From contig FN649744.1 in the NCBI GenBank assembly GCA_000310025.1, positions 246,045 to 310,044 on the forward strand: a stretch of 64,000 bases of DNA, written 5' to 3'. The notes under the pieces are model-generated. The model did no database searches. It saw nothing but the letters and a program-made list of their open reading frames with translations, and had not been told where the DNA came from. The position numbers and the translations under genes were made by a program. The number at the start of each line of letters is the position of its first letter. Position 1 is the stretch's first letter. Source of the stretch: Ectocarpus siliculosus (Eukaryota; Sar; Phaeophyceae; Ectocarpales; Ectocarpaceae). This document shows positions 838-54,849 of the stretch, piece by piece.

Positions 838-3800
838 CCCCAGCTCGTCCATCTCCGAGATAAGGTCCATCGCCTTCTCCCACTGGGCGGCGTCCTTCAA
901 CGCGTCCAGAGCGGTCTGAAACGCGGCCACGTCCGGCGTGGACCCGTCTTCCTCCATCTCATGCAACAGCTGCAACGCCCTCTCCCACCTGCCCCCCGTC
1001 GAGCACGCCTTCGGTGATGACGTCACACGCGAGAGGGGAACTTTTCAACAGCGAAGGACACCATATTCTAAAAAGGGTCTCGACACGCAGCAGCCGTGGC
1101 TCCGATATAAGATAAGAGGGTGGTGCGACAAAGGCCCTAGACCCTCTTACATCGGAGCCCCCTCTTCTACCGGAATAAAAAGGGTACCCAACTTACTGTA
1201 GAGGGTCGAGTCCGCGACAACCGATTTCGGCCCTCTGATATTGGAGTCACCCTCTTGTATTGGAGGTTCCCCCTTATATCGGACCCACGACTGCAACAAT
1301 TTCAAGAGGCGTCCGCTTGAAAGAGAGGGACGGGGGGTCATGCCATACTGTATGTCGTATGGGAGTGTGAGGACGGTTTTGGCGGGGAAAGGGAACATGA
1401 CGTCAACGGCGTTCCATGGTAAGTCCGTCTCGATGGCATCTCTTGCCAGTTTTCGTGTGAATGTGTTCGTTGTGAGTGACCACGTTCTCGACGCTGGAGA
1501 CGAGCTTGCGATGCGTTGAACAATGACGACAACGACAACGACGACGACAACAAACGACAGCAGCGGCGGCCGCACCTGCCACAACAACGTCAACAACAAG
1601 AGCAACAATCAATCAACATCACCGCGAGGAGAAAAACCACACGTCACACCACACATCGACAGGAACAGAAAAATAGCAACATCAGCAGCAGCAGCAGCAG
1701 CTGCGGCGACAACAACCACAAAAACACGAGTAGTCAGTAGTCAGTACAACGCACCTGCATGGCGAAGCGGTAGCTGTTCTGGTCCGGCCTCAACCCCTTA
1801 CTCCTCATTTCCCCGAGAAGGTTCAAAGCCTTTTCCCACTGTCCCTTCTCGCCACACTGCACGGAGGGAGCGACGTAGTGGTGATTAGACTATAGGGGGG
1901 GAGCGGGGGTCATACTGACTTCTTTGCTTTCCCTGAGGACAACGAAACCCAACACAACAACCACTGGGAGGTTGAGCACTCGGAATGCTTAAATCTGATT
2001 TTCGCGGTGCTGTCTCGTGTCTCCTGCACAGGACCCATTCACTGTTGTTATCCACGTCAGCTGCCTTAACACCTTAACCTTAACTGCGCTTGCTACGCGA
2101 GGGCACAAACTACGGTGGTCTTTCGCTCTCTCAGGCAATCAGGCAAGACAGGGCCAAGGAACCATCACACCTACTCTGCACAGCGCAGGACCGCGATGAG
2201 CGTCGCTAGAGCAATGGTTTTCAAGGCGTGCACACACCGAAAAACACGTTTTTCTTTTTGCCAGGAATGATCCCGGTCGGTTGCGAGGCTGCTGTCCTAT
2301 CCATTCCTACCGAAGAGGCACGGGAAGCCGACTGCAAAAGCACAATATTTCGTGCATCGACACCAGTCGCATTATACTTGTCGCATGTCCGCCATAAATC
2401 AGCACGTGCAATCTATAACAACCGTCGCTCATCACAGAACGAAGAACCAAAGCACCAAGCTTGGCAAAATAAAGCTGAACCCAAATAGAAATCATGAAAT
2501 TCTCAGCAGCAGTAAACGTCTTCTGTGGAGAAGAGAAGACATGCGATGGGATGGGCGAGAGGCTATTTATATATTCGCATACGACCCCAAGCCCTCCAAG
2601 GACTCACAGCGATGATGGCCGAATTGTAGGCCGTCTTGTCTGGCAGTAGGCCCTCGCGTGACATCTTCTCCATCAGCGACAACGCCTCCTCTGTTAACCC
2701 TGCGTCTCCACAGGCCTGGATAGCCGCGCCGTAGCATATCATGTCCGGGGCAATCCCTGTAGAGTAAAGGACGACGTTTGCCCGAAAGAAGAGATAGAGG
2801 TGGGTGGGGGGTGGGCCACGATTTTTCTGTAGTTTCCTTGTGGACGTTTGACCTTAAAAACACGCATATCTTGTCGATACGGACCACCGTTCCTAGCACC
2901 GTTCCTAGAACCGTTCCTGATCCTGCTCGACAGACCGCGAATCTTCGCACTCTCCACGGTTCTGTCATCACAGCCGCCAAACTATAAAATTCTTGCTTAT
3001 CATTTTTGCATGTCTCTCCTATGCAATGTAGCACTATGGAATCCGGGAGTCTCGCTCTCGAAGTTGTGACGGGATTAAAGTCATAGTCCCGTTTGTGGCA
3101 GCTGCATAGAGTGTACTCCGTTCAAGAACATCGTTCTCTGCAACTATTACAATACTGTTGCTCGACCTTTGCCCCACAACATGCAAATGAAAGCAGGCCG
3201 ACCCAACATGTGGCTTCCGATGAGCGGGCCGGCGCGTATGTAGTGGCATAGACCTAAACGCCCGGGGGAAACTCACACAACTTTCAACAGACTTGTTGAC
3301 GCGCGGCTCACCGTGCACTTGGACCATCTCGTCCAGCAACTCTAACGCCTTCCTCGGCTGCCCCCCCCTCCCGCAAGCAACGATGACAGAGCTGTAAGTG
3401 AACTCGTCGAACGCAATGCCGTCCTTCTCCATCTGCTTCATCATGGACATGGCCTCCTTCCACCGCCCGGCCTTGCTGACCGCACTGATCGCACTGTTGG
3501 GGGCGGGCGGGGTGGCATCATGGTGCATGCAGCGCGCGTGAGGAAAGGAAGAGCGGCGGTTGTACAGAGTAGATGTTTTGCACGGTGTTTTGCCTACTAC
3601 AGCGGTAGCATGAGAGAAAGACCAGCGAGTTCCCACAACTCAGTCAAAGAAAGAGCTTGGGATTCCTACGATGGTATGGTATCTGCAACAGCTTCGTCGC
3701 GCATACAGTGCTCCCGGAGGGACATCGAAGAAGCTCCCAAAACACACACGAAGCCTATAATAGCATCAATCAACGACCGAACTTATTTATCGTAGCGATA

Positions 3801-5576
3801 CAACACAACGATACCACACTACCCATATTGATGTCAACGATAGGGTGAGCATGAACACGAGCGGTGGACCACGCCAAGCGATTGACTCGTCCGCAACCGA
3901 CCACACCTGTTGTACATGTACACGTTCACAGGCACTCCGCGCACCCTCGCTCCGACCAGCGCTCTCGTCGCGTCCTCCCACTGGCCCCGCTGGCCAAGCT
4001 TCTTCAGGTCCGCGGCGCACGCCCTTTGGGCCTCCTCGACGGGATCCAACTCCCGCTTCCCCTGCCCCCGCCGCCCCGTAGCTTCCTCCATCCCCATGCC
4101 GGGGCCGTCCTTGTCCCACCAGCTGACGCCGCTCTCGCCCTTGCTCGTCCAGGCGTCTCCCGTCCCCCAGTCGCTCGACCGCCCTCCCGCCCCCTGTTCG
4201 CTCCTGCTCTCTGGGTCCCATGGTCGACTTGTCCCTTCGGCGGCCGCACCGCCCCCGGGGCTACCGCTGCTACCGCTGCTGCTGCCGGTGCCTCGCGCGC
4301 GGCGTCCCATGACGTTGCTTCTCCTGGGAGCGTCCGCGCTGCTAACGGTGTTGGCCTTCCAGCCTTCCAGCTGGTTCGACCCCTTGATAACGTCGCCGAA
4401 GCTGCCGCTGGCGCTGCTGCTACCGCTGCCGAAGCTGCCGCTGGCGTCGCCCTCTTTCGCCGCGAAGTCCCACGGGTCGTCCTCGAGACTCCCTCGGAGT
4501 CGCTGCTCCTGCTGGAACGGTGCCGCGGGCTTTGACGACTTGGTCCTGTCCTGGTTGTTGTTGTTGTTGTTGTTGTTGTTGTCCTCTTCGAGGAGGTCGT
4601 TCAGCCAGTCGTCCAGAGCAGCGGGGGTGTCGGCGGGATTGGACGGGGGAATTGGTACAGCGTCCCCCGTAACGGGGCGGTCTGGGACCTCGGCAGCAGA
4701 GCGGGGGCCGTCACCACCACCGCCGCCGCCTCCGGTAACGTCGTCGATCAACGATTCGAGGATGCCGCTGGCAGACGACGGACCGGCGGCGGCGGCGGCG
4801 GCGGCAGCCTTGCCGCCGGAGGAAGAAGAGACCTTAAGGTCTTCGTTGTCGAGGTCCAACAGGTCGTCCAACCAGGACTCCGACACTGCTGCTGCTCCGC
4901 TCGCGGAGGAGGGGGAGGGTGCTGGAGGCGTGCTAGTACGCGCTGCTCCTGCTGCTGCTGCCGCCGGCCGCCTGCCTGCGGGCGCCTGGTTCCCAGGTGC
5001 GGGTGCCCCGCCCGCCGCCGGGGGTGGGAGTTCGCTCAGCAAGTCGTCCAAGGAGTCGGTAATCACCGGGGAATCCAGCTTGGCAAATGGGTCGATGTCG
5101 ACGTCGCTGCTCCTTGAACTCCGGGGCGCCCTGGGCGAAGAAGAAGAAGAATCGTCCACGCCAAGCAGGTCATCCAGGGCGCTGAAGCCGTCGTCGAAGC
5201 TGGCTGCTGCCGGCGCGGCCGCTTGTCCCCCCAGTTGCTGCTGCTGGGTTGCTCCAGCCTCACGCCGCAGCTGAGCGTCGAGTGCGTCAAGGTTTCCGTC
5301 CCACCCGTCATCGTCGTCGCCCACTCCCAGGCCATCGCTCCCTTCTGTCGCAGCGCTTAGGCGGCCGAGCGCGGCACGGCGGGGCGTGGTGCCCGATGAT
5401 GTTGCATCTGCTGTTGCTCTTCGTGGGTTTGCATGACTGCAATAACCGCTGCGCGTTGTTGCAGCAGCAGCAGCAGCCCTTGACGGCACTTGCTGGGGAG
5501 TGGAAGCTGGTGGCGGCACGAAGCTGTTGGCCGAGGCTAGCAGGAGGGATGAGGCGGCCAGCCTCCAGAGCGTCAT
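838..5576 (-). CDS. Pentatricopeptide repeat (PPR) protein, probably organellar
   Basis: PPR proteins bind organellar RNA and direct its processing, editing or translation. Five exons join in phase on the minus strand: 5576-3907, 3493-3312, 2756-2608, 1856-1755 and 1008-838. They encode about 758 residues so far. The first 480 or so residues are low complexity (Ala, Ser, Pro, Gly, with a run of nine Asn). The remainder is a tandem of 35-residue PPR motifs: one degenerate, then VYMYNSAISAVSKAGRW..., EFTYSSVIVACGRGGQP..., MICYGAAIQACGDAGLT..., KTAYNSAIIACGEKGQW..., QNSYRFAMQACSTGGRW..., and a last one that is cut off. The N-terminus, MTLWRLAASSLLLASANSF, resembles a heterokont signal peptide with an ASAF-like plastid motif. 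Exon edges recur at similar places within the repeats. The 3' end is unresolved: either a donor at 838 leads to an exon outside the window, or the frame runs on to a stop near 688. All other introns are GT-AG. Confidence 0.85.
1091..1293. mobile_element. MITE-like inverted-repeat element in a PPR intron
   Basis: The two ends are inverted copies of each other: the left starts CAGCCGTGGCTCCGATATAA, and the right, read in reverse, starts CAGTCGTGGGTCCGATATAA. The right half repeats the motif CCCTCTTATATCGGA several times, like the subterminal iterons of pogo/Tigger termini. No clean TA duplication is visible. The element is about 203 bp long, non-coding and old. Confidence 0.6.
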
Positions 5577-5803
5577 GCTCTCCTAGGCTTTGCTTGTTCA
5601 AACTGCAACTTGCTTGTTGGATGGTTGTGGTGGTGCAGCGACGGGCCATGATGCGGGGGGATAATGTTCGGCCCCATACCCTCTCCCCTGCTGCACTTCG
5701 CGGAGCCCCTTGGATCCTTGGATCTTGCATATCCATGTACATCTTGCTTTCCTATATCATCATAGCACGGCAACTCGGCGGTGTCTCGGCACGTGCAGAC
5801 GCC
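5577..5803. promoter_or_regulatory. Divergent intergenic region, PPR / TTC12-like
   Basis: Only 227 bp separate the two proposed start codons, which face away from each other. The region must hold both 5' leaders and probably a shared bidirectional promoter. I see no clear TATA box or other named motif, so the promoter role is inferred from layout only. Confidence 0.4.
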
Positions 5804-24428: not shown

Positions 24429-24932
24429 CGACACGGAAGACAACAACAACAACGCAAGGGTACACGTGAAAAACAATTCAAGACACACAGGCCTAATAAT
24501 CGAAAATGGGGGTCATTTGGGGGGGGTGGGGGGTGTACTCATAGTGTGCATGCCGCAGTCGTTAGACCATTGACCTCGCATCCCTATAAAGCCTAATCGG
24601 CGAGTCGCATGAAGGGTGAGCTGCATCCTGCTAAGGGTGTTCGGCATCTTGTGCTTACTTCCTTGCGTACGGATGACAACTGCGTATGACTTAACTTATT
24701 TTCTGGTGCGTTCACTTCCAGGGACAGTTATAAGCACTGTGTAACTGCCTCGGGGATGCTTGACCATTTTAACACAACGTGGTGCGATCATCCCCCTTGC
24801 GCGGAGTGAGGTTTCTCCACCCCGCACAACATGATCTACTCGACCACCATTTATTATGGTTACCGCCAAAGAAAAAACAGAGGCAAAAAAAGAAAACGGT
24901 AACCTGGTTGCCGAGTTTACGAAGTAAATTGG

Positions 24933-28497: not shown

Positions 28498-31400
28498 ATG
28501 TCGTCGCTCTCCAACGGAAGACTCAAAGCTCCCAGCGTCTCGGCCGGGATCACGGTGAACGTGGCCGAGCTCGTAGAGGCGTTTCCCAACTACCAGGTGA
28601 GGTGGCATGATAGGCAAGGCCTTCTGTTTCGCTGAGGCATATGCATGCTCGCATGCACATGCACCGCGGTTGCCGTTGGAAACAGCAGTGGCAGACTGGG
28701 CACGGGATTCGTTGCGCGTTTCGTATCTTGTGCGATTGTGTGGCGAGCGGTTGCCCCTAGCCCACAAAAATAGCTTGTGTATCGAAACTGGATACGGCAG
28801 TGTAGGTTTCGTAGACCCATGCTGCGCATCCTTGCGTCGTTGTCGCTAGCGTTAGTCCTCGAGGTTCGAGGTTTGGCGGTTCAACACGCTGCGGCGGGTT
28901 TTTTCGTGACACGGGCATGGTCAGACAGCAGCTGCGTGCGGTATGAAGTCTACTGCTGTACTAACCTACAGTATGCAATGCACATGACCTTCATGATGGA
29001 GCCAGGTTCACGGGCGCTGTTTGGTACCCTCTTCTCCGCGCAGGACAGCAGTGATGTCTTGGTCGAATGTGTATATCAAACCATCCGGCACGCCTCGGGA
29101 GGTGCGTGATTTTAGAACCCCCCAAACTCTCCGCAAAACACGTGAGAACACACGAACCATGCGTACATACACAGCAGCACACATGCACGCAACATCGACG
29201 TATGTAGTCCATGCATCTGACGGCCAAGGAAAGCTGCACACGGCAGGAAAGAGGCGCTCTGCAGCAGTATGCGTGGGTTATTCCGGTGCGGGTCGCATGA
29301 GGGGTCGAATCGAATTCGTTCTGCTTGTGCTACTACTAATACATGCTGCTGCCCGTCCTTGGAGGGAAAACATGGGAACAAAAGGGGAAAGTCACAACCC
29401 ACCGCCCATCTCCACTACAACCATGAGAGTTATCTGTGCGTATGCAAGAAGAGACGACATGGAGTACAGTAGTCGACCCCGCTTTAAAGACACATATCAT
29501 TGAAAGTGTCACGGGGAAGAGTCTTTGGGTTTACGGGGGTGATACCTCGCCGTCCCCGGGGTCAACGGCGGCGTAACATGCGCCTTAGAACGCGCGATCG
29601 CAGCAGGATACTGTAGCACGACACCATCTTGAACTTGACGATCACAACATGGAGGTCGTTGAAAGTTGCACGTACTTGTTTATCACGTCGTTCGCCGTTG
29701 AACGTCAATTAGCACTTCACCCCACATTATACTTCAGAACCGTGGGTGCAGAGCTGCAGGACGAGGTGTTTCAGTAACAGAATATGCGTTGTAGTTGTTG
29801 TTGACTGTATTACCTTGTGGTGTCGTCCCCACCTTGAAAACCTTGCCGAGATGAAGTCCTACAGGTGTGTGTGCGTGCTGCAGCATTACTTCGGGAGTCC
29901 CGAATAATGAAAATGTCATTTTGTATTGTTTTGTTGAAAAATGACTTCGGGTCTGCTAAGACTGACTGCTGTGTAGTCAACAACAGTTCCCTGGTTTGCT
30001 CGTTCTAGATTGCTTTGTGTGTTCTTTTCAGCAAACATCATGCCTCCTGAAAAGAGGCTCTCACTGAAAACAAGATAATGGGTTGATGACGCAAGTCAGT
30101 AGTCTACTGTTCAAGTGACCTGTGCTACGGCTGTAGCAGCAGTGAGCAAGTATGGTAAAAGAAAGGTGTGCCACACCTTGTTCACAGGTGTGCGGAGGTA
30201 CGCTGTAGACGTGAGTCTACAACCAAATGAGAAATTTGGTTGAAAGAGAAATGAAAAATATGTTACAATTTTTTCATGTTGTTGAGCTGGGCGAGCGCTC
30301 TGCCTGGTCAGCCTTTTTGTCGATTACCGACGAAACTACGAAGAACCTTAGTACCAGTCCGGAACCATTACGGAACCGTTCCGGGAACCAAATACCGTTG
30401 GGGCATCCTGCTGCTGAAATTTTTGTGTGTCCTTAAAGCGGGGATTTGACGTAAGATGAGTGTCTTTGAAGCGGGGACGACTGCTGTGGACTACTGGTAT
30501 TCTTATGCTACAGCTGTCGTTGTTTAGGGAAGCAACAGAGATGCACTCGAACTTGGCCGTTAGTGTATTTTCGTGGATGGTTCGCCCGCGTCCGTCCTTG
30601 TACAGAAGGCGCCGACACTTGCAAAAGAACAGCAGAACGGGAGTGTTGAAAGAACCGCAGGCTCGAAGAAGCTCAGGCCTTCAGAACGCGACCAAAAATG
30701 ATAGGTGCCCGGGTAGGAATCCTAAACTAAAACCTACCTTCAGCAGATAGGATAACCCCATGAAGAAAATAAGACGTTCTTTTTATGTATCGACTATGGA
30801 GCCAGGTCGTGGAACACTCGAAAGCCACAACCAGAGCGGAGGAAATGCAGCGCGTCTCATCTACGAAAAACATTCTTATTTTGCTCCACCGTGCGGTTCT
30901 TCTCGTAGAAGTGGTGTACAGAACACGCCACCAACCTTGAGAACGTCGTTCTCATGTTCTTATCATGGCCGAGGCTCGTTTCTTGTTTTGTCTATGGGGT
31001 ACACTACCTCCATGGTGACTATATATATAGGGTTTAGTGTAACCTTCTTGACTGAGCACCAGTTGTTGTGACCAATCTCATCTCTTAGATTTTGATTCTT
31101 TTTGGCACAAGTTGTTCAATTCTAAGTTCTTATGTGGTGGCGCGTTCTGTAGTGCATCTCTGGCACCTACTACTGTACGTTCAGCTGGACCTTTTGTCAG
31201 AGAGCTCTTCGTATAGTATTTTGGTATTGTGACCTACAGATAACGCGCGCCCTTTTTAAGACACTTGTAGTTAAAAACGCCACATACGAACTTGGGCATC
31301 TTTCGTGGGCCTGCTAAGAACCCCTACACAAAAACCTATCAACGGTCATTTATAGACCACAAGACAGCCTGATATTTGCGAGAGGCGGAACATTGCTGCG

Positions 31401-34400
31401 TGCTGCTACGTAACTAAGTGACCCTCGGAACAATGAGATGTAATATGTCGTTGATGTCGTTGTTTCTGGCTAACCAAAGGCCAGGTTTTGATGGTGGAAG
31501 ATGAGAGTGAGAGAGAGAGGCGCACGAGCCAGCCTGCCATCACTAAAAACAATAAAAACAATATCTACGGTCGGGGACCCCAATTAGCCAACCGGCTATG
31601 GGTGAGTTCCCCCGAGAAACTTACTATTCTGACCGTTCGCTGACAGTCCCGTACGTGAACGTGTCTCTTGCTCTTCTTTAAACTATACGTGTCTGCTAGC
31701 TACTGCTAGTTGCTGATACCCATTCTATGGCATACTACAGATTTTCGCGCTCATGCCATCGTACTGTCATAGCTTGGGTACTACTCCTACTATTGCCCGT
31801 GTTGCCAACAGCGAACACAGAAGGAATAGAAATTGGCTACTGTCTACATGGGCATGTAAATCTCCCTGACATACTCATGCATTTGCATGCATATCGGGAG
31901 GAAACACAATACCTCCACGACAAGGACCAAGGCGATGATCGTGCCGTTCATGCTTGACTGTGCGCGTGGGGTGTGGTTTTCTGGCCGCAACAACTGTCGT
32001 CGCTTGCACACCTCACTTGCTGCTTCGTTCCCGACGACGACGATGATGATGATGATGATGCTTGCGAGCAGGAACCGGACCGTGTGCAGCGTGATGTGCT
32101 GGAGCTCTCCAAGAGCTGCAAGACCCTGGTCCCCAAGCGAGGGAGCGTGGGTGAGCACCGCGAGCGCGCTCGGCAGCAGTATTGCACAATGCGCCCAAGG
32201 GGTCGTACGTTGATGGTGGGAATACGCCCAAACAACGCCAGAACGGAGCGGCACCCCAAAAATCTGCCACGGCGTTCGTTAGGGTACAGCCGGCGCACCA
32301 TGTATCGCTCATTTCTTGGCTTGGAGTGCTCTAATTTTTGTTTTGTGCAGATTAGGTTGGAGGTCAGGGAACGGGTCTATTGGTTACTATAGTACGTAAG
32401 CCCTCACCAAGAGCCAACACGTGTACTCTACGCAACAACGGCTGTTGTTTTCGCAGTTGTTGCTGCTGTTGCTGCTGTTGCTGCTGTTGCTGCTGTTGCT
32501 GCTGTTGCTGCACTTGTTGTTTCTGGCGGCCAGTCCAAGACCAGGTGCCAACTGACGTTTTTCCATAGCAGGCCACCCACGGCTCATCGCGGAATGTAGG
32601 AAGGACCGGTGTTCCATGTACAGTCGAGGGCTTGGCGGTTGTAATCATTCGTTCGCGACGCACCCCCATGCGCATGTGATCTCCCCTCGCCGCTTTTACC
32701 ATTTCGTCGCTGTCGTCGCTCATCTTTCTTTCGCCGTTCCTTGTGGCAGATTTGGAATCTGGGCGAACGGAGCTGTTGACGCTACACGGGACGTTTCCCA
32801 TGGTGTTCCGCAACGCGCAGTACTTCACCCCTGTGCAGGTAAGCAAAAAATGGCTGTATGTCTTCGTTTCGCATATATTGAGGTAGGTAGACGACATGAG
32901 TTTTACATAGATTTCGTGTCGGGAACATACATTTGTCTTCATCCCTTCAAGACACAACCAGGAGGTAGTTTTTTTCTTTTCTTTTTCGATGTGCAAACAT
33001 TTCTGAAAATGCGCAACGTACCAAACCTGTTTTTTGTTTGGTTGTTTTTTCCGGTCACCGATGATACGTTTTTCATCGTGTTGTCTGTTCATTTGTTCAT
33101 TTTCTCAGATTTGTTGCCGCGAGTTCGGGCCTCCCCCTATTCAATACTGCAGCCATTTCTCTGTATGATGTTCTTATGCTCAGCAGCTCTGCGTCTGTTT
33201 CCCCTGCGGCGACAATTTTTTTGTTTGGCAATATGCCTTCATGTAAACCAAAGCATTGGGTGCACTCACACTATTCCCCAATGCCCCCGTCTCTCTCCGA
33301 TCTCGGTGTCATTCCGCGGGTTGCCTTTTATTCATCTTTCTTGTGTTCAGATCTACATCACGGAGAGCTACCCTGCTTCTCCCCCGGTTTGCTACATCAT
33401 ACCCACTCCTGGTGGGTACTGGAGAGACGTACATGTATGGACGATTCTCGTGCACCGCAACGCGGCGGAATCACTCACGGAAATCGTTAGCTAGCTAGCT
33501 CTTGTGCTGGGGACGGTAAGAACCGGCGCTAAGTAGTTCGAATTGGCCCCTGAACGGATAGTGGTGGATATTGTTTGCAATAGCTGTCGATTGCCCGGCA
33601 GTTCTGTTTTTATCCCTTTGCCCGTAGTTCAATTTTTTGTTGCCATTTCCCTTTGCCCATGGTTGTGCCGCCATTTCTACGTCGCTGAATTTTCCCATGT
33701 TTGTCTGGCTGCCAGGGTGTGGCTGATTTTTGCGGTGGTTTACCACTCCTGGCACCGAGAGAGTGACGTCGCATCGACCCGCACTTCGTACGCCGCGCGC
33801 TGTGTGGCGCAGCGTTGCGTGTCAGACCTATTAATCGTTGCGCACCAGACCCCCCTAGACCTCGTCGGTCGTACTGACCGTGCCTTCTAGGGTTAGGAAC
33901 ATGTACCCTTCTTTTCACCAAAACAGATCGTGTCTGAAGCCCCTCTGTTGTAACCATGGGCCTATCTCATCACAGCCATATCTGGTGCTTCTCTGTGTTG
34001 ATAGTTTGTGTACCCCTTTTGGGGTGATTGGCCTGTGACCACGGAAGGTGTCCGCGTCAGCTGGACCAGCGTGACGGAAATTAACAGGTCCTGAGCAGAT
34101 ACCGATCTTTTTTTAATGCGAAGTCAAATGTACAAGCACCGCACGAACTTCAAGGATGGCGCGGCACCCGGCCCTACCATGTCTCTTCATCTTCTGCGGT
34201 CGAGGGCAACTTGCTGCTGTCAACGCCGCCACCGCCGCCCTCTCTCGCCTTGCCTCACTCTTACTCTAACAGACCGCATCCTTGCTCGAACGCGGGCACA
34301 TGGCAGCCGCTTTTTCGCCTAACCATGCCACAACCTTAGCCACGTGGTGGTGTGCTCCCTTCTTTGGCGTTCGGGCAACCCATCCGGCTTTGCCTTTTGA

Positions 34401-35563
34401 TCAACCAACCAACATTAGGTATGTCCTTGAGAGCTGGCCATCAAAGTGTCGACGAAACCGGCTTAGTCTCCCTGCCCTACTTGCAAGGCTGGAGCGCCGC
34501 TCACAACCTGGTGGAGTTAGTGGGCACCATGTCGACCGTTTTTGGAGCGCAACCCCCGGTAAGCGCCTCCCGTACCGACACCAACACCATCATGACTTCG
34601 AGGAAGACATGGTGGGAAGCAAAGGCTTCAAGCTTGAACGGCAAGCACGCCTAAAACATGAAGAACCGAACGTCGACGTAAACCTTAAACCTTTCCACTC
34701 CGCGTAATGGGGGAGGGCTTGGTGTCCCCCTTTTGTTGCTTTCGTCCGTGCGTTGTTGTGCCGTAGACACTCGTTTTCGAGATGAGTCACCGTCCATGCT
34801 GCGCGTAGAGTCATAGATAAAGTCTTCACCGTAGTCGGGTGATGTTCGACTTCGGTTTTTGTAGCATTTTTCACGAGCATGTTTCGCTATAACACCTCCC
34901 CTTTTTTCGGCCGCCTGATGTTGCCACCATCTGCATCCACCGCCTGCAGTCGTAGAGCGAACTTTTCTCTCGATGCTTGTCATTGCCTTGTAGCGTACCA
35001 AACCCCGTAGACGTCACACACTCCTCAAGTTTCCCCACCTCCACCTCCTCCTCCTCCACGGCACGCGTCCATGTTATTTGTTTTTCCTCCTTGTATGCAT
35101 AGCATTCAACGCAATTCCTCATGTTGAGTGGATGCTACTGCCATCTGCTCCGCCACACGACACTCCTATATGTTCCGATCCAAGGACCCAACGGACCTAT
35201 CACTCGCCCTATGTTCACAACATTCAAGAGCAGTACACAAGTACATACGTGAAGCTAGATGGGACAGACACTTCGGAGGGCACGAGCAACTTGGCGGAAG
35301 TGCAGTAATGGATAATCCCACGAAACTGACCTTTGACGTGCACCTACCTTGGACTCCCGAAAATTCCGTACCCATCCCGCCCCCTTCCCTTCTCTCGCCT
35401 TTCTGTCTGTCAGCTCTTCGCCACCCCCTCGCCCAGTTCCTCGACTCCCACCAAGACCACAAAGGTGTGGTGGGCGTATGATTTTGCGGGTGGTCGCCGA
35501 GCTTCCTTGATTTTGTTCGTCGCTGTCGCCGTCGCTGCGATCGGCCTAGGCGTTTTGAAATGA
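28498..35563 (+). CDS. UEV-domain (TSG101/Vps23-like) protein with C-terminal membrane anchor
   Basis: UEV domains are E2-like folds without the catalytic cysteine. In TSG101/Vps23 (ESCRT-I) they bind ubiquitin and P(S/T)AP peptides. Six exons join in phase: 28498-28596, 32072-32150, 32750-32838, 33351-33411, 34419-34558 and 35414-35563 (TGA), giving 205 residues. The domain fills residues 20-156: LELSKSCKTLVPKRGSV, ELLTLHGTFPMVFRN, IYITESYPASPPVCYIIPTP and LVSLPYLQGWS all match the TSG101 order. Where E2s have the active-site Cys there is none (GLVSLPYL). The last exon is a Ser/Thr/Pro linker, then ASLILFVAVAVAAIGLGVLK at the very end: a 19-residue hydrophobic anchor after Arg-Arg. The coiled coil and steadiness box of TSG101 (about 390 residues) are absent. 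Intron 1 is 3.5 kb and carries a transposon. An alternative last exon (35128-35308) is discussed under rejected items. Confidence 0.75.
29467..30486. mobile_element. 1-kb non-autonomous DNA transposon in UEV intron 1
   Basis: The left end reads CAGTAGTCGACCCCGCTTTA followed by AAGACAC. The right end in reverse reads CAGCAGTCGTCCCCGCTTCA followed by AAGACAC. Inside the right end the CCCCGCTTTAAGGACAC unit is repeated once more. The left flank is TA; the right flank is TG, one base away. No transposase-like frame is visible inside. The iterated termini fit the pogo/Tigger style. Confidence 0.65.
32455..32512. repeat. GCTGCTGTT 9-bp microsatellite
   Basis: About six units of GCTGCTGTT lie in the intron between UEV exons 2 and 3. 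Frames through it give poly-Cys/Leu or poly-Gln/Asn/Ser and are not genes. Confidence 0.9.
34034..34095 (-). repeat. tRNA-like dispersed repeat, diverged copy 3
   Basis: On the minus strand the last 28 bases align to copies 1 and 2 without gaps (GACGCGGACACC then TTCCGTGGTCACAGGC). The rest is more diverged. It lies in the UEV intron before exon 5. Confidence 0.4.
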
Positions 35564-36496
35564 TCTGGGATGACTTGTGAAGTGAGTCCGCAGGGCCGTC
35601 TAGAGCAAGTTAGGTTGTCCTGTCCCTCTGGTCGATTGATACAAGAGTATTTGTAGTCGTTGCCTTCTCCCACTCACGTCACAGAAAATGAACCGTCCAT
35701 CAACGAAGAACTACCCTCTTCGAGACAATGAATGTGGATGCAATATTATTTATGCAGTGCAGCTTCAGTGGCGACTACCGGAGGCTGGACTTGACTGAGT
35801 CGGTCATGGTCCCATTCCTTCCTTCCCCGTTGCTTGTCGATCGGGTGTATTGGCGTTGACCCAACCCTTCCAAGAATGGATGGAGACTGTCGGTCGTTTG
35901 GTGCAATCTCTATGGGTCCCGTTGCTTGTGCAACCGGTTTAGCTTTCCTGACCGCGAATCACCAGCACAACTTGTCGAGTGATCCGCTTTTTCGCCCTCT
36001 CTGGGGTTTGGGATACCTAGAAACCTCTCGTAATGCATCCCGTCAATGCCACTCTGGCGTGGCATAGAGGAAAACACTTTCTTGCGTGAGAAACACCGTA
36101 CAACGTTCTCTTGACCGGTTTCAGAAGTGATAGGTGCGTGACCTTCTCTGTCCGTCTATGCATATCTCTCTCTCGGTAGCCTGTCTGATCAACATGAACG
36201 GTTGTTTTGGTGAGCTGGATGAGGCGATTTTCATCTGTCGATTCTTCATTCGCCTTTGCCTGTTTTTTGTTGTACTGTAAGTTGTCTGCCTCCGGCAAAG
36301 TCCCCCTGCCCGCTGTCTCCCGTGGAGGACAGAAATGGTCACCCTGAAGCCCTAGAGAAAGGTCGACAGGGAGTAAATGCCATAATATTTTGTGCAAAGT
36401 ATTGCCCAAGCGCAAAGAACATCTGGAATTCCGCCGTGTGCTCCGTTGGGAGAGACGGCTTCTCTCCATCCGAAGGGATGCGTATTCAGTGATGAC
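35564..36496. other. Intergenic region, UEV to sulfotransferase
   Basis: I see no coding exon or repeat of note. The two genes point the same way, so this must contain the end of one transcript and the promoter of the next. An ATG at 36492 is followed at once by a stop; the next ATG, 36497, is the one chosen for the sulfotransferase. Confidence 0.5.
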
Positions 36497-44619
<8,123 letters not shown>

Positions 44620-50381: not shown

Positions 50382-50416
50382 CTCTAGAGTTCTTGTGGCG
50401 TTAACGTCATAGTCTA

Positions 50417-51754
50417 GTGCGGCAGACACACATGTCTTCGAACGACTCTGTGAACTCTGGCGGGGGCGAGGCTGGCCCGACTCATGAGGAGCTTAGGACG
50501 GCCATCGACGACGCCGTGGGCGACGCCAGCACCAGAATGGAGAAGATGGTGACGGAGAAACTGGAAGGCATCATGAACACCTTGTCCCGGTTAGTGCCCG
50601 GGACACCGCCCGCCGGAAGTGCGACCGGAGCGGGCGGCGGGGGGGAGTCACAGGGGAGGACGCACGCCTTCCCTGGCGCGGGTCAGCTAGACCAAGCGCC
50701 GAATACTGGACGAGGGCTCGAGGGAGCGAGAGGACTGCGAGGCCCGGAAACACGAGAGCCTACACCACACGGTGCTATCTCGCGAGAGGGAATCAGCAGA
50801 GAGGAGCAAGCTTCACGGTATGCTTTCAGCTCGCATGCCCGTATCCCACGCCTGAAACAGTTGGACTTCAACGGAGACGAGAAAAACTGGCTGATGTTCC
50901 GAAACGATTTCATTACGCAGGTTCAGACTTGTGGGATGGGTCGCGCCTTGAGCGACAGCAGAGACATTGAGGTCCTAGGCGTAGACGATGACGGCATGAT
51001 AGAGCAAGGAGTGGAAGTAGGGGAGATAGCCATGTACCGGGATTTGTGGGGGATGCTGACCGGAGCGATATCCAACAACTCCACAAAAATGCTGGTGTAC
51101 GATCGAAAGGGGCCCTCGGCAGCGTGGCGTGCGTTAGAAGAAACATTCACCCCCTTGACCGGCGGCGAGCAGATCTCGCTGATCGGAAAGTTTTATAATG
51201 CCCAACAAGGGAAGAACCAGGAACCCCGAGTGTTTTTCCAGGAGTTCAAGTCCGTAGTGACTAACCTAGAGTTGGCATTCGACCAGCCCATCCCAAAAAT
51301 GCTCGTGTATGCACGGTTCCTCGATGCGCTTTCCCCGGAATTCGAGATTCAAAAGCAACAGCTGCTCGCCCAGAAAACACTCGATGAAGAAGAGATTTTG
51401 AGAGTGCTTCGCACACGGGCTGGGCAACTGAAAGCGGAGGAAAAGAAGGGGAAGAGTGATCGGCGAGCGAACCATCATGCGTTCGTAGCAGTAGAGGGGA
51501 AGGGGGGAGGAAAGAGACGTCCGAAACAAAACCGAGGTTACGAAGAGGCGAATATAGCTAGCGATAAGAGAGTCAAGTGCTACGTCTGTGATGGTGACCA
51601 CTATGCGAGTGCATGCCCAGAGAAGCTTTGCCAGAGGTGCGGAAAAAAGGGGCACAACGCGAAAAACTGCCCATCGAGAACTGAAACTGCAGTCGCCGCG
51701 ATTGAAGTTGGAGTCGGTGGTGTTGAGTTGGACGTCGCATACGAAGCACTCTGA
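50417..51754 (+). other. Gag-type polyprotein of the nested element
   Basis: A single frame of about 445 residues. The first 120 are Gly/Glu-rich. The middle resembles the retrotransposon gag/UBN2 fold (WLMFRNDFITQVQ; AWRALEETFTPL; FFQEFKSVVTNLELAF). The C-terminal quarter has a basic stretch and two zinc-knuckle-like motifs, CYVCDGDHYASAC and CQRCGKKGHNAKNC, of which the second is the classic CCHC. It is a capsid-type protein of a virus-like element, described here as a fossil part. Confidence 0.85.
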
Positions 51755-52995: not shown

Positions 52996-53360
52996 TGTTC
53001 GTGAGGTGGATTATGCCATCCTTACGAAGGCTACTGCGGTAGTACTCATGTGTGGTTTTGAGCTATGCAGGTGCGCAAGTGCGTGACCGTCCATCGGTCA
53101 TTTGGATCTTCGGGGTATCTCCGGTAGTAGGATCTTTGGCAAGTTGTCGCGCATTCCTTGCTGTCATGTATTCCGAGTTCCGAATGCGTCTTGCGACTGT
53201 TGCTCGCGTGCCTCGGTGTTTGTGATGCACCTGGGTGCCCACTCTCTTCCGTTGCTTGTGTCTACGAGGACGACCAATAAAACGACTTTACCATCTCTTC
53301 ACATTGTCAAACGGGACAGCCGTGCTCATCCAGCAGCACTCGGCTTGGGGCCAATCAACA
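52996..53360 (+). repeat. Right LTR of the gag-only element
   Basis: A 365-bp direct repeat of 50017-50381, followed by the GCCAT target duplication. Confidence 0.9.
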
Positions 53361-54306
53361 GCCATCCCCCCAGCCTCTCGACAGACCCCTGACCTCGTGG
53401 ATGATCCGCAGGGCCAAACACGATGTCTGCATGCAACCACCTACACAGATGCCTCACTACCTCCGCTCCGAACTCTGAACCCCTATCGCAGCGAATGGTT
53501 TTTGGAACACCGAAGGTCAGGCATAGCTCGATCAAGACGCGCGCAACGCCTACTGCCTGCTTTGTCTCTAACGGGAAACCGAAAGGGAACTTAGAGGCGC
53601 GGTCTACCACGAGCAGAACGTAGTTGTTGCCGGTCAGCGACGGCGTGTCAATCTTGAGGATATCCATTTGCAGCTCATCCCACGGCTCGAGCGGTCTACC
53701 TGGCATCATGGCTACCCGTCTACTCTGCGGTCTCTTGCGTTTACGGCAACTACACGACAACACGTACTGTCGGGTGTCTCGCGTCATCGTGGGCCAGTGG
53801 AAATGATTTCGCAGTAAGGACAAAGTTGCTCCCGTCCCGGCATGACCATGCAGCGTGTGTACCAGAGCGATGATGTCTGCTACCATGGAGTCGGGGATAG
53901 CGGGCAGTTTCCTACCCTTACCATCCACGTACCGGATAACATCATCTTCACCTAGGTCGTACCGCTTATCCGCCCTTCCCCCCTGGCTAGTGTTCGCATT
54001 CTCATTCAAACTCTTGCGAACCTGACCCAAGAGAGTGTCGTCTCGTTGCCGTTGAGCCAGCAGGGCTGGCTTGGTGAGCACCTGTGCAGTCGAGTCGATG
54101 ACTGCCGTTCCACTCCAGCCTGGTCCTGAGGACGACCTCGGAACCTCCCCCCGTGCAGCAAGCACTTCGCCGATGTCGTCATGGCCCGGTTGGACGGGTA
54201 ACGGTGGAAGCGTCGGGAGCGGGGGCACCGGGTCTGCCGACTCGACTGGCGTAGGGCCGGCCGCCATCCTGCTCGGTAGACGCCCCGTCTCCCCGGCCGG
54301 TGGCAA
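53361..54306 (-). other. Integrase N-terminal and core part of the gypsy fossil
   Basis: Minus-strand sequence with the HHCC zinc-binding region (HTLHGHAGTGATLSLLRNHF; CSCRKRKRP) and the DDE core (ELQMDILKIDTPSLTGNNY; VLLVVDRASKFPFGFPL; KTIRCDRGSEFGAEVVRHL). These identify a Ty3/gypsy-type retroelement integrase. Confidence 0.85.
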
Positions 54307-54345
54307 CTGTACGTCGCCGATGGGCCGCAGACGTACGGACGGCGT

Positions 54346-54384
54346 GCTGTGGAAACCCGAGTTCGATTCTCGGATTGGACACCA
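54346..54384 (-). other. Extended tRNA-like primer-binding site
   Basis: On the plus strand, CCCGAGTTCGATTCTCGG is followed by ATTGGACACCA and then directly by the LTR. This is the 3' end of a tRNA: T-stem CCGAG/CTCGG around TTCGATT, then the acceptor strand and CCA. On the element's strand it starts TGGTGTCC, as expected of a primer-binding site. Complementarity covers about 29 bases or more, longer than the usual 8-18. Confidence 0.65.
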
Positions 54385-54849
54385 TGTAGCAAGTGGAGAG
54401 ACTGTAATCTGAGAGGGATCCTGTGACTTGAGAAGGTCTTGTAGGAGAAAACTCGAGCTTCTGGTTTAAGGCTCGCAGGGGCCACATATGCACATGTCTG
54501 GTTTCTGAGAGGATCCCACGCATGACTAAATGGTGACTAAACAGCTACCGACCTGTTGGTAGCAGTCTCTCGCTCTTGCACCGAGTTCGAAGGAGCGCTT
54601 GAACAGCGGTAGAGAAAGCCTAGAAGGAGGCTTGTGGAACGTGGAGAAGGTCTCCGGTCGTGGATACGGTATTCGCTTTGATTATTGCTAAGCACAAGTG
54701 CCAACAAAGGAAGTGAGCAGCGTGTGCGGGGGCGACACGCTCTACAAGGAGCTCTGCGGAATGTACAGAACTATACAGCACCCTATGGGCATAATGCAAA
54801 CCTCCCAAAGGTGCAACTCCTTGAAACCGTAACTAAATTAACCGTGACA
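54385..54849 (-). repeat. Upstream LTR of the gypsy fossil
   Basis: A 465-bp direct repeat of 47356-47820. The flank just right of it begins GTCA, matching the left side. Confidence 0.9.

Follow-up and report, generated by a model that had tools for sequence, protein, structure and literature searches.

The DNA stretch analyzed here (the window, 64,000 nucleotides from Ectocarpus siliculosus, positions 246,045 to 310,044 of contig FN649744.1, called C19 in the genome coordinates below) carries on its plus strand, at window positions 28498-35563, a gene that we rebuilt from the sequence as six exons encoding 205 codons and a stop. The predicted protein consists of a UEV domain of the TSG101 type, a linker of 26 residues, a hydrophobic segment of 19 and a single terminal lysine, and this combination of a UEV with a predicted C-terminal membrane anchor is very probably a real architecture. 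The six phase-matched exons and 205 residues of the original prediction were recovered, with all joins in phase, GT-AG borders and ten intact splice borders; the splicing is deduced from the DNA and from a paralogue, the canonical TSG101/Vps23 gene of the same genome. The parts of the gene are the following (a stroke marks an exon border).

28498-28596, plus strand: exon 1, residues 1-33, from the ATG to the donor CAG/GTGAGG in phase 0; exon 1 of the paralogue ends at the aligned place (FPRYQ/).
32072-32150, plus strand: exon 2, EPDRVQRDVLELSKSCKTLVPKRGSV, first part of the UEV; 79 nt, phase 0 to 1, with length and phases equal to those of paralogue exon 2.
32750-32838, plus strand: exon 3, part of the predicted PTAP pocket (T74, F79, R80, Y84); phase 1 to 0, like paralogue exon 3.
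33351-33411, plus strand: exon 4, IYITESYPASPPVCYIIPTP; 61 nt, with length and phases equal to those of paralogue exon 4 and a DNA identity of 81% over 68 bp.
34419-34558, plus strand: exon 5, end of the UEV with the vestigial active-site region (Ser127), closing in VFGAQPP; 35.5 bits to PF05743; the PP/ border is in phase 0, as in paralogue exon 5.
35414-35563, plus strand: exon 6, Leu-Phe-Ala (LFA; the last PTAP-contact positions), the Ser/Thr/Pro linker, the putative membrane anchor and the stop; starts with CTCTTCGC, encoding LFA as in paralogue exon 6.
35501-35557, plus strand: predicted transmembrane segment, residues 186-204, by the Kyte-Doolittle and biological scales.

The first intron measures 3.5 kb. 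Triplet-type repeats lie in intron 2 (32456-32511) and in intron 1 (32033-32060, just before the exon-2 acceptor).

The TSG101-like UEV fold proposed earlier was borne out by a search with the UEV-family profile: in hmmscan, residues 39-157 matched Pfam PF05743 with E = 9.3e-27 (profile positions 2-121 of 121; 93.8 bits against a cut-off of 27), placing the protein among TSG101-type UEVs above the curated cut-off and over the full domain length. The match to the E2 enzyme profile UQ_con reached 22.9 bits, below its cut-off of 27. A phmmer search of PDB sequences returned eight distinct matches, seven named TSG101 (which we take to be human) and one yeast Vps23 (STP22, E = 0.00065); the best, to the TSG101 UEV, covered residues 16-161 (E = 2.4e-21) and ran across the join of exons 5 and 6, aligning PP/LFATP with PP/VFSRP. 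Ser127 stands at the position of TSG101 Tyr110, which presumably occupies the place of the E2 cysteine, in keeping with the claim that the domain lacks this residue.

The canonical TSG101/Vps23 gene lies on the same contig, on the minus strand from C19:222980 down to about C19:213000, and encodes a UEV, a proline-rich linker, a coiled-coil stretch and a steadiness box. Our model of it, built in C19:200001-246000, has ten exons and 353 residues (UEV, E = 3.6e-34; Vps23_core, E = 1.5e-22), its last residues and the GC donor of exon 8 being uncertain. That donor, at C19:215404 outside the window, reads CAG/GCAAGG, with GC in place of GT. The two gene starts (C19:222980 and C19:274542) are 51,562 bp apart and, since the canonical gene occupies the opposite strand, the genes are divergent. 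All five introns of the window gene match canonical introns 1-5 at aligned codons, with phases 0, 1, 0, 1 and 0; exons 2 and 4 measure 79 and 61 nt in both copies, and exon 6 of both starts with the same Leu-Phe-Ala codons after a phase-0 acceptor. Beyond this start the copies have no recognizable likeness, one continuing into the ESCRT-I core and the other into the predicted anchor. Because a TSG101 gene with homologous introns sits 51.6 kb away, the window gene is, by this comparison, a diverged duplicate of TSG101/Vps23.

The genome-wide profile searches score the best candidates only, so that their counts are lower bounds. Among the best-scored candidates, the UEV profile found exon matches in the window gene and at C19:218058-218204 (minus strand), and a search with the entire window protein gave nine matches, every one in the window gene or the canonical gene. 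The Vps23_core profile had one match above the cut-off, at C19:213064-213234 on the minus strand, with a second on contig C45 below it (E = 0.95). As this lone match belongs to the canonical gene, no steadiness box of the window gene was found by the whole-genome search, in line with the original description of a UEV gene without this domain. The canonical C-terminus (residues 147-353) was likewise not found by tblastn at window positions 34559-64000 (best E = 0.18), and a steadiness box or canonical C-terminus further downstream was rejected on these two negative searches. The central coiled coil is absent from the protein model, which ends 48 residues past the UEV match, no coiled-coil predictor having been run. 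Other ESCRT-I subunits are present elsewhere in the genome, namely VPS28 (three exon matches, contig C16) and VPS37/Mod_r (two, contig C18). A blastn comparison of the window with C19:200001-246000 gave seven matches, of which one is exon 4 (68 bp) and the other six look like dispersed repeats. A recent local duplication was rejected on this result; either the duplication is old or its flanks were not copied along.

The join from 34558 to 35414 was supported by the homologous junction of the canonical gene. Since that gene shares the intron positions and phases and the Leu-Phe-Ala start of exon 6, the join is, as far as homology can tell, the ancestral junction, and a chance join was rejected because the paralogue has this junction in the same phase, followed by the same LFA. 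Exon 6 opens with the codons for L157, F158 and A159, counterparts of TSG101 Val141, Phe142 and Ser143, and the PTAP pocket would therefore be incomplete without this exon. Just one of the 45 YAG sites at 34601-37200, namely 35414, continues with [LVI][FY]; across both strands of the window and the preceding 46 kb, 74 of 5900 YAG sites do so, and 23 continue with [LVI][FY][ASG]. The acceptor tract of 35414 contains 14 pyrimidines in 17 positions, the highest value of the 23 candidates listed. Candidate GT donors within exon 6 score at most 6.5 and the 13 GT donors of both genes at least 7.6, on a matrix built from those same 13 donors with the one GC donor left out.

The hydrophobic end itself, residues 186-204 (ASLILFVAVAVAAIGLGVL), is preceded by two arginines and followed by a single lysine; it was found as described in the original prediction, as was the short Ser/Thr/Pro linker, whose 26 residues lie in exon 6 between the UEV and the segment. 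Its Kyte-Doolittle mean is 2.69 over 19 residues, against a top 19-residue value of 1.24 in the canonical protein, and on the biological insertion scale it sums to -2.1, against a best of +8.9 in residues 1-170 and +7.7 in the canonical protein (the values of all three hydropathy scales used here were entered by hand). On the biological scale, then, the protein has one hydrophobic segment, at the C-terminus, and none elsewhere, as is expected of a tail-anchored protein. For comparison we assembled 2680 mock terminal exons, including exon 6, each starting at a YAG site and open for at least 25 residues, from both strands of the window and the preceding 46 kb. The Kyte-Doolittle value of the tail was reached within the last 25 residues by 15 of these and anywhere by 29; among the 1146 of 35-65 residues the corresponding numbers were 1 and 3, and because exon 6 (49 residues) belongs to this set, the single match is exon 6 itself. 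The biological scale gave the same counts in the last 25 residues (15 of 2680 and 1 of 1146), so that on both of these scales a tail this hydrophobic is rarer than expected by chance. The genome yielded no second copy of the tail (next match, E = 0.88). As its source we considered the proline-rich exon of the canonical gene, surviving as a relic in a shifted frame, and rejected this, the two other frames of exon 6 containing stops and having no likeness by eye. We think that the target membrane cannot be read from the Arg-Arg and Lys flanks.

The UEV of the window gene looks constrained. It is identical to the canonical copy at 83 of 142 aligned residues, with nonsynonymous and synonymous divergences (dN and dS) of 0.31 and 1.26 by the NG86 method or 0.31 and 1.17 by LWL85, giving a dN/dS of about 0.25 over 142 aligned codons. 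Twelve TSG101 residues, including Val141, Phe142 and Ser143, have been reported to contact the PTAP peptide (PMC7650771). At these positions the window copy has the human residue in six cases (T58, R64, Y68, T92, M95, F142), a conservative change in three (Y63F, V141L, S143A) and a different residue in three (D34T, N69F, I70T). The two algal copies agree at 10/12 of these positions, against 85/149 aligned residues overall (hypergeometric P = 0.049, for a set of positions picked after the fact).

We interpret the gene as a duplicate in which a membrane anchor replaced the parts behind the UEV, and whose product acts as a membrane-fixed receptor beside ESCRT-I; to this explanation as a whole we assign a probability of roughly 0.55. 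After duplication of TSG101/Vps23, this copy would have kept all five introns of the UEV as well as the opening codons of exon 6, and its proline-rich linker, coiled coil and steadiness box would have given way to a short linker with a membrane anchor at the C-terminus. The protein could be inserted post-translationally as a tail-anchored protein with its UEV in the cytosol, where the domain, no more than about 26 residues away from the bilayer, may bind client or adaptor proteins through their P[ST]AP-like motifs, perhaps also through ubiquitin, and thereby concentrate these proteins on one specific membrane. Lacking a coiled coil and a steadiness box, it is not expected to join ESCRT-I, and judged by its parts it is no ESCRT-I subunit; it would instead be a receptor fixed to a membrane, working alongside the cell's own ESCRT-I. 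By analogy, the mechanism itself, in which a cytosol-facing UEV near one membrane serves as a local receptor or, with lower probability, sequesters TSG101 ligands, has in our estimate about an even chance of being right. The more far-reaching proposal, that in this lineage a duplicated TSG101 became a UEV receptor embedded in a membrane, recruiting P[ST]AP proteins to one organelle outside ESCRT-I, and thus a new class of tail-anchored UEV, is tentative, and we would put it below even odds.

Several observations weigh against this interpretation. The Wimley-White octanol scale does not distinguish the tail (-5.5) from part of the UEV core (-4.9). The dS above 1 is near saturation, and the evidence of selection covers the aligned UEV codons only. 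With human TSG101 as the third sequence, 14 of 142 sites are changed in the window copy alone and 5 in the canonical copy alone, an excess that fits a new function but also a weakening constraint. The functional step is argued by analogy. Finally, ubiquitin is reported to be bound by the TSG101 hairpin 43-48 together with the vestigial active-site region (PMC9944984); the human residue is kept at 1/6 of the hairpin positions in the window copy (G47) and at 2/6 in the canonical copy, and the positions of H102 and Y110 are both serine in the window copy. Since six of the twelve PTAP contacts are equal and three more conservatively changed, against one of six in the hairpin, binding of P[ST]AP-type motifs looks likelier to have been kept than ubiquitin binding.

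The alternative that survives best, although we consider it unlikely, assigns the anchored UEV the role of a brake, which would bind TSG101's P[ST]AP ligands or its ubiquitinated cargo at a membrane and so withhold them from ESCRT-I, in the manner of a natural dominant negative. The agreement with the canonical copy at 10/12 PTAP-contact positions suits such a role, as does the failure to find the parts needed for ESCRT-I assembly; sequence alone does not separate a recruiter from a sink.

That the anchor exon is an artefact of prediction appears improbable. The transcript would then end in a retained intron 5, yielding a soluble UEV-only protein (read on from exon 5 into the intron, the frame meets a stop at 34652-34654), or would leave exon 6 through an internal donor, for which 35465 (phase 0, score 3.5) and 35470 (phase 2, score 6.5) are candidates. 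The splicing of this exon is read from the sequence and the paralogue rather than from RNA, and a second, 283-residue Entamoeba protein has been reported to lack the Vps23 core (PMC8588831). Against this, the acceptor at 35414 is the counterpart of the one that opens canonical exon 6 and carries the conserved PP-[LV]-F on across the join, its pyrimidine tract (14/17) is the richest of the 23 candidates listed, and no steadiness box or canonical C-terminus was found downstream, a coiled coil of unrelated sequence not having been searched for.

Slightly less probable is a decaying duplicate, poorly expressed or silent, with a hydrophobic end that is a random extension after exon loss. The greater change of the window copy (14 against 5 of 142 sites), the 3.5-kb first intron and a tail with no other genome copy (next match, E = 0.88) would fit decay, but 205 codons free of stops and frameshifts, ten intact splice borders and a dN/dS of about 0.25 with dS above 1 argue against it. 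A membrane-bound Ubc13 partner of the Mms2/Uev1 type, helping to build K63 chains at a membrane, is very improbable: by the title of Wang et al. 2020, Arabidopsis Uev1A/B reportedly carry an extension at the C-terminus that includes a putative prenylation site and functions in membrane association, but the window protein scores 93.8 bits against the TSG101-type UEV and 22.9 against UQ_con (cut-off 27), and the intron-by-intron homology points to TSG101.

If the anchor of the membrane-fixed receptor is real and conserved, the head by which ESCRT-I reads its adaptors would be separable and could be fixed to a membrane by swapping the exons behind the UEV, providing a natural test of a UEV that acts alone. 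Within the E2 fold, the tail-anchored E2s would then have a membrane-bound reader as their counterpart, and a lineage-specific trafficking step would be indicated.

Other features of the window include parts of mobile elements and further open frames. At 53329-54465 (minus strand), an Integrase H2C2 domain (E = 3e-13) and an rve core (E = 3.5e-10) form part of a retroelement, and a 449-residue open frame at 50405-51751 (plus strand), with CCHC zinc-knuckle and copia-gag signals under the cut-off, is perhaps a retroelement gag. PPR repeats at 3037-3639 (minus strand; E = 5.8e-15) probably mark a PPR-gene exon. Two long open frames, at 3837-5582 (minus, 582 residues) and 3886-5271 (plus, 462 residues), overlap on opposite strands and matched no Pfam family at E 0.01. 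At 631-738 and 24519-24593 lie repeats of about 55-110 bp, which share 83-86% identity with copies at C19:236340-236453 and C19:239763-239820.

In the open-licence literature on UEV, TSG101, ESCRT-I and tail anchors, none of the matches listed describes, by title or abstract start, a UEV with a transmembrane anchor, which is weak evidence of absence; papers combining 'UEV domain' with 'C-terminal transmembrane' concerned, judging by their passages, other proteins. Among the ESCRT papers listed, none names Ectocarpus. Searches of viral contigs with the window protein (4 pattern matches) and with a three-sequence alignment (26), and of prokaryote genome contigs with the alignment (11), gave no confirmed match. 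The closest relative is the canonical TSG101/Vps23 copy, which shares the UEV with its five common introns, the LFA start of exon 6 and 10/12 PTAP-contact positions; it continues into a proline-rich linker, a coiled-coil stretch and Vps23_core, whereas the window copy ends in a predicted anchor. In overall plan the protein resembles the tail-anchored E2s UBC6/UBE2J, in which an E2-fold domain is followed by a linker and a C-terminal transmembrane segment. These, however, are enzymes, whereas the window protein is a TSG101-type UEV with Ser127 at the active-site position and a UQ_con score of 22.9 bits against a cut-off of 27.

Among plant Uev1 proteins, BdUev1A is described as differing from its sister proteins in having its location governed by a C-terminal tail (PMC5067413). 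BdUev1A and Uev1A/B share with the window protein a UEV distinguished by its C-terminal tail, but by the accounts given of them they are Mms2-type partners of Ubc13 with a putative lipid anchor, whereas the window protein is of the TSG101 type and has a predicted hydrophobic helix. The 283-residue Entamoeba protein, reported beside EhVps23 as Vps23-like and without the Vps23 core (PMC8588831), is, when compared by description only, likewise a second Vps23-like copy lacking the core; the description mentions no membrane anchor. In a survey of ESCRT proteins, Vps23 is given as UEV, coiled coil and steadiness box (PMC10936438), and UEV and Vps23 core domains are tabulated among calpain fusions (PMC3563603). 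The N-terminal region of VPS37A is reported as a case in which a UEV-like protein is brought to a membrane by segments of its own, the curvature-sensing motifs (PMC10942982); VPS37A, as portrayed there, is an ESCRT-I subunit that relies on such motifs, whereas the protein of the window carries a predicted transmembrane anchor.

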